From: Paludibacterium purpuratum
GTDB lineage: Bacteria > Pseudomonadota > Gammaproteobacteria > Burkholderiales > Chromobacteriaceae
Length of the DNA stretch: 64,000 bases
Direction: 5' to 3'
Assembly: GCF_004363805.1 (NCBI RefSeq)
Contig: NZ_SNZP01000002.1
Span: forward strand, 186,001 to 250,000
Shown here one piece after another: positions 10,178-39,372 of the stretch (positions within the stretch are counted from its first letter, which is position 1; each line of letters opens with the position of its first letter). The notes under the pieces are model-generated. The model saw only the letters and a list, made by a program, of their open reading frames with translations. It ran no database searches and was not told where the DNA came from. The position numbers and the translations under genes are program-made.

Positions 10178-11364
<1,187 letters not shown>

Positions 11365-13154: not shown

Positions 13155-14273
13155 TTGCGAACACGCCAACTCATCCGCTTGGGGCTGAGCCTTGGGCTTC
13201 TCCCCGTACTCGGGCAGGCCGCTTCGGTCGCAGATACAACCAAACTGATCGACCAATACGCCCGACAGTTGCAACAGGCCGGCCAGCCCGTCGGCCTCAC
13301 CGTCGTGGTGGTCGATGGCAACCAGACCTGGCAACGCTATTTGGGCGAGACCCGCTACGGCAACCGTACACCGCCGCAGCCGGACACGCTGATCCGTATC
13401 GCCTCGATCAGTAAATTGTTTACCGGCGAAGTGCTGGTGACGCTGGCTGCCGAACGCCGGCTCACTCTCGACGACCCGCTACAAAAGTATGCACCGGCCG
13501 GTGTGGTCGTGCCGCAAGGCGGCAAGGGACAGATCATCCGCCTGGTCAACCTGGCGACCCACACCAGCGGTCTGCCGCGCGAAATGCCCGGCCAGCGGCC
13601 AGCCGATGCCCCGGTCTTCTCTTGGCCGACCGAAGGGCAGCGCTGGCAATGGATGGCGAACGGGCGCCTCAATGCCGTGCCGGGCTCGCGTGCGGCCTAC
13701 TCGAACCTGGCCTTCGATTTTCTGGCCGACGCCTTGGCTCGCGCGGGCGGTAAGCCTTACCCGGTGCTGCTGCGAGAAAAGATCACCGCACCGCTGGGCA
13801 TGACCAGCACCACCTTCTCGCCGACGGCTGCGCAATGCGCTCGGTTGATGCAAGGCATCGATGCCAGCCCTTGCACCGACTCCCAACCCGCCGACGGCAG
13901 CGGCGGCATCTATTCCACGCCGCACGACATGGCACTTTGGCTGCAGTCGCAGCTGCGTGCGAAGAGCATCGTGGCGCAACGCGCCCAGCAACTGGTTTAT
14001 CGCCGCAAGGATTTGCGCGCCATCAACGGCATGGATCACGCCGGTCAGGCGGATGCTTTGGGACTCGGCTGGGTCTACATGGAAGCGCGCGACGGCCAAC
14101 CGGCCATGCTGCAGAAAACCGGCGGCGGCGGCGGATTCCTGACCTATGTCGCCATCAACCCACAGCACCGGGTCGGCGTGTTTGTCGCCATGACTCGCAG
14201 TCGCCACGTGTCGCCGCGCGGCATGATCAACCAAGCCAATAAACTGGTTGCCGCACTATCCCAACAGCATTAA
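13155..14273 (+). CDS. ampH: AmpH-like serine hydrolase (class C beta-lactamase fold; DD-carboxypeptidase/endopeptidase)
   Basis: A 372-residue periplasmic penicillin-binding-like protein, close along its length to E. coli AmpH, a peptidoglycan-remodelling DD-carboxypeptidase/endopeptidase. A signal peptide (LGLSLGLLPVLGQAA) leads. The active-site motifs are SISK (about 84-87), AAYSNLAFD and QKTGGGGG. Family signatures TRYGNRTPPQPDT, VNLATHTSGLPRE and DALGLGWVYM are present. The start is TTG at 13155, with GAGGA 6 bases upstream; no better ATG fits the signal peptide. It follows the ATPase gene by 24 bases and may share its transcript. Confidence 0.9.
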   Translation: MRTRQLIRLGLSLGLLPVLGQAASVADTTKLIDQYARQLQQAGQPVGLTVVVVDGNQTWQRYLGETRYGNRTPPQPDTLIRIASISKLFTGEVLVTLAAERRLTLDDPLQKYAPAGVVVPQGGKGQIIRLVNLATHTSGLPREMPGQRPADAPVFSWPTEGQRWQWMANGRLNAVPGSRAAYSNLAFDFLADALARAGGKPYPVLLREKITAPLGMTSTTFSPTAAQCARLMQGIDASPCTDSQPADGSGGIYSTPHDMALWLQSQLRAKSIVAQRAQQLVYRRKDLRAINGMDHAGQADALGLGWVYMEARDGQPAMLQKTGGGGGFLTYVAINPQHRVGVFVAMTRSRHVSPRGMINQANKLVAALSQQH

Positions 14274-14337
14274 ACGCCCTTATTCAGAATGCATGCCTAA
14301 CCGGGTCCTGTGCGGCCCGGTATAACGACAAGGGCGT
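14274..14337 (+). terminator. Nested stem-loops directly after ampH
   Basis: An outer 8-bp stem (ACGCCCTT at 14274-14281 with AAGGGCGT at 14330-14337) encloses a second 6-bp stem (ACCGGG/CCCGGT, 14300-14321). A GCATGC palindrome lies between. It starts one base after the ampH stop and probably ends that transcript, although no T run follows. Confidence 0.45.
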
Positions 14338-14362
14338 CATAATGAAAAAGGAACGTTAGCGG

Positions 14363-14452
14363 ATGAAAATATTCAATGTTGCTATCGCCGGCTGGCCGGC
14401 GCGACATCGCCATGGCTGCTTCTGCAGGCTGGGCACCCTGAATCTATACTGA
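14363..14452 (+). pseudogene. Internally deleted dapB relic (29 codons)
   Basis: A 90-base open frame with AAAGGA upstream. Its last 23 codons align without gaps to the last 23 codons of dapB (11296-11364), with stop codons in register. I count 51 of 69 bases identical, and the shared peptide is AGW-x-ARHRHG-x-F. Its first ten codons read MKIFNVAIAG, like a DapB N terminus (dapB here: [10 protein letters not shown]). The two parts meet at GCCGGC, which is present in both ends of dapB, as expected for an in-frame deletion by short homology. A functional small protein cannot be excluded. Confidence 0.6.
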
Positions 14453-14476
14453 CTGACCGACCTACGGGAGAGCCAC

Positions 14477-15064
14477 ATGCGCCGCTTTTACCTGCTGATC
14501 GTCAGTCTGCTCGTCATCTCGTCAAGCCAGGCCGCGCTGGCCGACGAAGCTCACCAACCACGCTGCGATGCACGGCAGCTGGACATTCGCCTATTGGCCG
14601 TACAAACCCCGGGCATGATGCATGAACGCTGGCTGTTCGGGGTCATCAATCGCGGCAAGCATCCTTGCTACCTGGCGGCGCAAGCGCCCTGGCTATCGGG
14701 CGAAGGCGCGGACGGCGTCGGTGGCTTCGCCGTGGCGCACCTAAAGCGGACCGATTGGCAGGCACTGCCGGCCAATGGAAATCGGCCGCTGATGGCGGCC
14801 GATAGAATTGTCTGGTTTTCGGTGGATCTGACGCATGCCGAAGCGCCCGACTTCGACCGCTTGCACATTCGCTTAGCGGGGCTGGGCCAGCGCACCTTCA
14901 CGCTGCCGATGTCCGGCAATCGCAGTGAAATCCGGCGCATCTCGCCATTGGAGCAAGATGTCAGCCGCTGGCTCGGCGGCGTCGATAGCGTTTGCAGCGG
15001 CGATGCCGGTTGGCATGGCGCCAACTGGGCGGTCAATTTGAACCACACCGTCCACTGCGACTAG
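14477..15064 (+). CDS. Secreted protein of unknown function (DUF4232-like)
   Basis: A 195-residue protein with a clear signal peptide (FYLLIVSLLVISSSQAALA), so probably periplasmic. The mature part begins with Cys-containing PRCDARQLDIRLL, then LFGVINRGKHPCYLAAQAPWL, which resembles the DUF4232 pattern of paired cysteines and a conserved Asn-Arg. Four or five cysteines suggest disulfides. No enzyme motif is visible. RBS GGGAG lies before the ATG. It is convergent with spoVR across only 9 bases and sits just after the dapB relic. I cannot assign a function. Confidence 0.72.
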   Translation: MRRFYLLIVSLLVISSSQAALADEAHQPRCDARQLDIRLLAVQTPGMMHERWLFGVINRGKHPCYLAAQAPWLSGEGADGVGGFAVAHLKRTDWQALPANGNRPLMAADRIVWFSVDLTHAEAPDFDRLHIRLAGLGQRTFTLPMSGNRSEIRRISPLEQDVSRWLGGVDSVCSGDAGWHGANWAVNLNHTVHCD

Positions 15065-39287: not shown

Positions 39288-39298
39288 CGGAAAAACGA

Positions 39299-39365
39299 AA
39301 AAAAGGGGGTCCGGTCTTTCTTGTTGCATGCTTCAAGCAACAAGAAAGACCGGACCCCCTTTTTT
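39299..39365. terminator. 29-bp perfect inverted repeat between ppk2 and accD
   Basis: The arms at 39299-39327 and 39337-39365 pair without a mismatch over 29 bases around a 9-base loop (ATGCTTCAA). Outer ends are A6/T6 tracts and the core contains GGGGGTCCGGTC. It certainly can terminate transcription from both converging genes. The arms are far longer than a normal terminator and resemble REP/RAYT-associated palindromes. Confidence 0.85.
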
Positions 39366-39372
39366 CAAAAGT

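Follow-up and report, generated by a model that had tools for sequence, protein, structure and literature searches.

A short open frame beside an ampH-like gene of Paludibacterium purpuratum is very probably a worn remnant of a second dapB copy

In a 64,000-nucleotide stretch of the Paludibacterium purpuratum genome (contig NZ_SNZP01000002.1, positions 186,001 to 250,000; hereafter the window, in whose coordinates all positions are given), the 203-bp spacer between an ampH-like gene, the stop codon of which ends at 14273, and a gene starting at 14477 contains a 29-codon open frame. The frame occupies 14363-14452 (90 bases) on the forward strand, as do the intact dapB, the two flanking genes and the relic segments described below, and reads MKIFNVAIAGWPARHRHGCFCRLGTLNLY followed by a stop codon. 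Our results indicate that these 90 bases are very probably what is left of a second, decayed copy of the lysine-pathway gene dapB, and they look like genome debris of an ordinary kind, without signs of a function. The explanation that we favor, and that we consider likely from the sequence comparisons, is that a copy of the organism's own dapB came to lie between the ampH-like gene and gene 14477, lacks 240 codons of its interior, and has been drifting unconstrained ever since as a non-functional relic.

The probable source is the intact dapB gene at 10555-11364, 3 kb from the relic. Its product matches TIGR00036 (4-hydroxy-tetrahydrodipicolinate reductase) at 319 bits, over the cut-off, and carries both DapB_N and DapB_C; elsewhere in the genome of this organism the DapB_N profile did not exceed its cut-off. 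A preliminary description of this DNA had aligned the end of the frame with the 3' end of dapB, and our recount gave the same result, with 51 of 69 bases identical between 14384-14452 and 11296-11364, no gaps, and stop against stop. The relic tail in the narrower sense (14387-14452) corresponds to the last 22 dapB codons including the stop (11299-11364) and is identical at 50 of 66 bases, a score that none of 2000 shuffles equaled. In dinucleotide shuffles of the 203-bp spacer (n=500), a check suggested by the same description, the best alignment with dapB reached only 38, compared with the 51 observed. At E <= 0.001, the 4.0-Mb genome of this organism yielded a single second match, the dapB tail (E 2.3e-7, 50.9 bits), with scores computed for 40 of the 52 first-look candidates. 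When the 90-base frame was used as the query at a looser limit, the next match reached 37.4 bits, 13.5 below the dapB tail, and no second relic copy beyond dapB was found among up to 40 scored candidates. By its sequence, the relic tail is a genuine dapB 3' end.

No other same-strand pairing of 69 bases in the window, at offsets of at least 200, scored as high as that of the relic with the dapB tail. The runners-up in that comparison scored 47 (21716 and 24764) and 44 (3295 and 62357). Opposite-strand pairings of 62, 46 and 45 were found as well, and these are self-complementary stretches, each pairing with itself. Among the side observations is a near-perfect long hairpin at 39297-39367, with G-rich and C-rich arms, 62 of 69 bases self-complementary in one register and a T run at its end; parts of it recur at three more places in the same genome, on contigs C11 and C14, and we presume that it may be a REP-like element.

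The choice of scoring mattered for these comparisons. With lax gap costs, none of 2000 shuffles reached the score of the relic region against dapB (233), but other 203-bp tiles of the window scored up to 273. Because scores obtained in this way fail to separate real GC-rich sequences from one another, ungapped or stricter scoring was used for later tests. A contiguous copy, in which the bases preceding the tail would come from just upstream in dapB, was ruled out, as only 5 of 21 bases were identical.

The head of the relic (14363-14386) is a probable copy of dapB codons 1-8 (10555-10578). Its 24 bases are identical to those of dapB at 15 positions and differ by seven transitions and two transversions; over the first ten codons of the frame, 20 of 30 bases are identical. 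The preliminary description had likened these ten codons to a DapB N terminus. In support of this, the best placement of 14363-14383 along the whole of dapB falls exactly at the start codon, 10555, but when gaps and any position in dapB were allowed, the head gave no significant match (210 of 2000 shuffles scored equally well). When the alignment was anchored at the ATG, 11 of the window's 2008 other ATGs and 73 of 200,000 composition shuffles equaled the head in raw identity. Its transition-weighted score was reached by 0 of 2008 and 2 of 200,000, respectively, the weights having been derived from the tail but picked after the differences had been seen. Without its last three bases (21 bases remaining), the head was equaled by 106 of the 2008 other ATGs in raw identity and by 8 in weighted score. 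Among 429 ATG starts of frames with at least 150 codons, dapB was the top scorer for the head, and only 3 of 1577 open ATG frames, the relic itself included, fitted the DapB N-terminal profile as well as its NVAI residues. The triplet ATC at 14384-14386 was assigned to the head rather than to the tail, because all three of its bases match the dapB 5' part and only one matches the tail. Taken together, these comparisons make it probable that the head is a dapB 5' end. The G+C content is 37.5% in 14331-14386 and 65% in the tail, so that head and tail may have separate histories.

The two parts meet in a junction zone at 14384-14392, where GTCGGC (10579-10584) of the dapB 5' part and GCCGGC (11299-11304) of the 3' part overlap exactly at CGGC. 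If the frame derives from one copy, codon 8, which ends at 10578, would have been joined to 11299, with the loss of 720 bp in frame (240 codons). An in-frame internal deletion by microhomology at GCCGGC had been proposed previously. A 720-bp in-frame deletion does explain the join, but the repeat is less exact than proposed: it is shared as CGGC, or as CG[T/C]CGGC with one mismatch, which is short for a sequence of 62% GC, and a join at the GCCGGC found six bases deeper in the 5' part would make the relic two codons longer than it is. Because of this base composition, a 4-base match is weak evidence for microhomology, and the junction is compatible with a deletion of this kind without proving it. 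We infer that an originally complete copy lost 720 bp by deletion at the short shared sequence, which brought its two ends together.

We next consider what has happened to the sequence since. The 18 differences between the relic tail and dapB are distributed over the three codon positions as 6/8/4, compared with 1/4/9 and 0/6/9 between the dapB tail of this organism and those of two relatives. Ten of the 15 changed codons replace the residue and five, including the stop, do not. The motif MQDVL, present in 24 of the 25 most relic-like tails listed, is gone from the relic. The pattern points to unconstrained decay and differs from that left by purifying selection on a coding sequence, a reading that has little power with 18 differences in one sequence. 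When the tail was decayed at random by 26%, the frame and its stop were kept in 32% of 20,000 simulations; thus, the open frame needs no selection to account for it. An AAGGA that precedes the ATG by about 10 bases would, together with the AT-rich start region, make translation of the 29-codon frame possible. Its 29 residues, compared with the 269 codons of dapB, represent a gene most of which has been lost, and they would not be able to form a DapB enzyme.

Comparison with relatives bears on the time and the source of the copy. Among 24 other genomes, the dapB genes most like that of this organism are those of G002 and G003, two members of its genus (protein identity 87% and 82%). The gene order bamE, dapB, FecCD permease, ATPase, ampH-like is found in both as well. 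As the preliminary description had recommended, the same place was examined in relatives. In G003, the same two genes flank a spacer of 76 bp (if the gene starts at the matching ATG), compared with 203 bp here, and this spacer contains no relic. Its left part matches 14299-14327 (29 columns; 2 of 2000 shuffles as good), and no match to it was found for 14331-14452 (457 of 2000 shuffles as good) or for the last 24 bases of our spacer (1106 of 2000). Because only the left part matches, the spacer studied here is about 127 bases longer, and 90 of these are the relic. In the stretches retrieved from G002 and G003, the best matches to the relic tail were their own dapB tails (42 and 44 of 69, respectively), and the next best reached 34 and 33.

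We also compared the relic with 67 other dapB tails (51 of 80 loci in one set and 16 of 24 loci from other genomes). The tail of the organism's own dapB was the closest, at 51 of 69 bases, followed by those of G003 (44) and G002 (42), with all others at 38 or below. At the 14 sites where the tails of this organism and G002 differ, the relic agrees with the former at 10, with G002 at 1 and with neither at 3; at the 15 sites that distinguish it from G003, the corresponding counts are 11, 4 and 0. Since the relic sides with its own dapB at these discriminating sites, the copy most likely arose from dapB of its own lineage, after the splits from G002 and G003. Of the two origins suggested earlier, an old duplicate or a dapB from another source, the comparison favors a duplicate from the organism's own lineage. 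Arrival with neighboring genes, as had also been suggested, is not needed to explain the relic; G002 and G003 share the order of the permease, ATPase and AmpH-like genes, and no relic was found in either.

A survey of 60 further genomes of the family, scoring up to 14 candidates per genome, revealed no relic, and at a looser limit the five of them that belong to the genus, for each of which 25 to 40 candidates were scored, gave a best match of 36.5 bits. The frame was likewise not found as a conserved small protein in these 60 genomes, the five of the genus included (at most 40 candidates per genus genome and 14 otherwise); such conservation had been named earlier as an observation that would count against a relic. 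A single match at E <= 0.001 was seen in the family, inside a FecCD permease gene of G070 (L059 2596-2650; 40.1 bits, 77% over 55 bases). This match is probably due to chance, and it illustrates that blastn E-values near 1e-4 are unsafe in GC-rich DNA. The match of the dapB tail to the relic is 10.8 bits above the best among the 60 other family genomes.

The genes on either side were examined too. The upstream neighbor (13155-14273) encodes an AmpH-like D-alanyl-D-alanine carboxypeptidase/endopeptidase (NF007943, 494 bits, cut-off 266); by Pfam it is a Beta-lactamase, and its score of 95 bits for class C beta-lactamase is far below the cut-off of 415. The downstream neighbor (14477-15064) encodes a 195-residue protein that by eye has a signal-peptide-like start. 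It gave no Pfam or NCBIfam match at E <= 0.001, and its best PDB match had an E of 0.69. Among 40 other relatives, only G003 had a homologue, and none was found in 398 other genomes drawn from the order. In both G002 and G003, a gene that we take to be SpoVR-like lies beyond the ampH-like gene; in G003 the gene for the 195-residue protein stands between the two, and G002 is without it.

The remainder of the spacer yielded little. An AT-rich stretch immediately upstream of the relic (14331-14362), which contains the AAGGA, has no counterpart in G003 and no convincing match in the window (best 20 of 32), and against dapB 519 of 2000 shuffles were as good in a gapped alignment. A search with 14318-14386 in the same genome found nothing better than E 0.24 except itself. 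The possibility that this stretch is a copy of the end of bamE found no support, the ungapped best lying near zero; with gaps, 14330-14362 against the bamE end was borderline (62 of 2000 shuffles as good), and 14274-14362 against bamE gave 1434 of 2000. On the other side, the relic ends 24 bases before the next gene, and a duplicate that ran on into the permease gene and supplied the start of gene 14477 was rejected, with these 24 bases matching nothing (1854 of 2000 shuffles as good). Over their first 60 bases, the permease gene and gene 14477 share 29, a value reached by 2 of 366 hydrophobic starts, and when the downstream flanks were included with the two starts, 93 of 2000 shuffles aligned equally well. 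For a copy of the relic's age, about 44 shared bases of 60 would be expected (arithmetic from 74%), compared with the 29 seen. Both starts look like signal or membrane segments. A candidate RNA element was also rejected; the sole Rfam match in the spacer was DUF3577 at E 0.93, with 17 bits against a gathering score of 42.6, and the spacer folded only marginally better than its shuffles (z -1.90). An integron attC site was dropped on inspection, since its inner arms do not pair. A simple scan of 14200-14600 found no promoter-like (sigma-70-like) or terminator-like site, a negative that says little as regards promoters. At 14300-14321, 3' of the ampH-like gene, there is a G+C-rich inverted repeat (ACCGGG...CCCGGT), partly common to G003, which is not a standard terminator because it is without a T run.

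Several other explanations for the frame were weighed. One holds that only the dapB 3' end was copied, as a short templated insertion, and that the head is unrelated AT-rich sequence with an accidental likeness to DapB. The modest identity of the head, its AT-richness and its failure in the free gapped search would fit this, as would the tight boundaries: homology ends within a few bases of the start and stop codons, as expected of short patch copying, and blind DNA duplication need not give such ends, which counts against our favored explanation. Against it stand the placement of 14363-14383 exactly at the dapB start codon, the scarcity of ATGs and shuffles that score as well with the ATG fixed, and the fit of NVAI to the DapB profile, and we therefore regard it as unlikely, if worth keeping in mind. 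Pure chance, by comparison, is scarcely credible. The higher gapped scores of other window tiles under lax gap costs and the G070 match show how far unrelated GC-rich sequences can agree, but with ungapped or stricter scoring no shuffle or other same-strand pair in the window comes near, the match exceeds its closest competitors in other genomes and in its own by the margins given above, the stop is in register, and the source is 3 kb away.

It is also conceivable that the frame, with a ribosome-binding site of its own, is translated into a leader peptide or a new small protein that arose from a shortened dapB. Twenty-nine open codons, the AAGGA, the AT-rich start region and the short distance to the next gene would suit such a role. 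The spread of changes over codon positions, most of them replacing residues, its absence from the relatives searched and the ease with which neutral decay leaves a frame open make it improbable; the lack of a sigma-70-like promoter match adds little. To the more specific proposal that a duplicate deleted in its middle became a new small gene, its 29-residue peptide or leader lying upstream of the orphan, apparently secreted 14477 protein, we would give the least credence of the readings that assign a dapB origin. Acquisition of a dapB fragment from another lineage by horizontal transfer, for which the AT-rich head might speak, appears marginally less probable than a small protein. The tail is nearer to the organism's own dapB than to the 67 other tails, RHRH and ARH occur in none of these 67, and the spacer was unmatched at E 1e-5 in 72,556 plasmid records, a collection from which records near this genome may be missing.

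According to the explanation that we favor, a dapB copy, either whole or consisting of the ends only, would have been inserted between the ampH-like gene and gene 14477 after the split from G002 and G003. It would have lost, or never had, the 240 internal codons and would have drifted without constraint since then. A whole-gene copy that later shrank and two short pieces inserted directly would both fit the sequence, and the genomes compared showed no intermediate with a whole gene.

A lineage-specific gene relic is a known kind of thing. Disabled native duplications are one of three sources of prokaryotic pseudogenes suggested in PMC522871, and the Pseudofinder report gives 238 and 305 intergenic remnants for two genomes (PMC9336565). 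Like the pseudogenes and remnants described there, the present stretch appears to be a disabled native copy that lies between genes and is found by similarity. It differs from those described in being very short, in still being open from start to stop and in apparently joining both ends of one gene. Compared with DapB, the source of its tail and probably of its head, it is missing about 240 of 269 codons and is without the NAD(P)-binding and catalytic domains. No published account of it was found in a limited literature search.

The relic thus offers a small, clean example of duplicate-gene loss in a compact genome, timed against two sister genomes. It also indicates that short intergenic open frames may be nothing more than debris. 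Since about one third of simulated neutral decays keep the frame and its stop, an open frame alone is no argument for a small protein.
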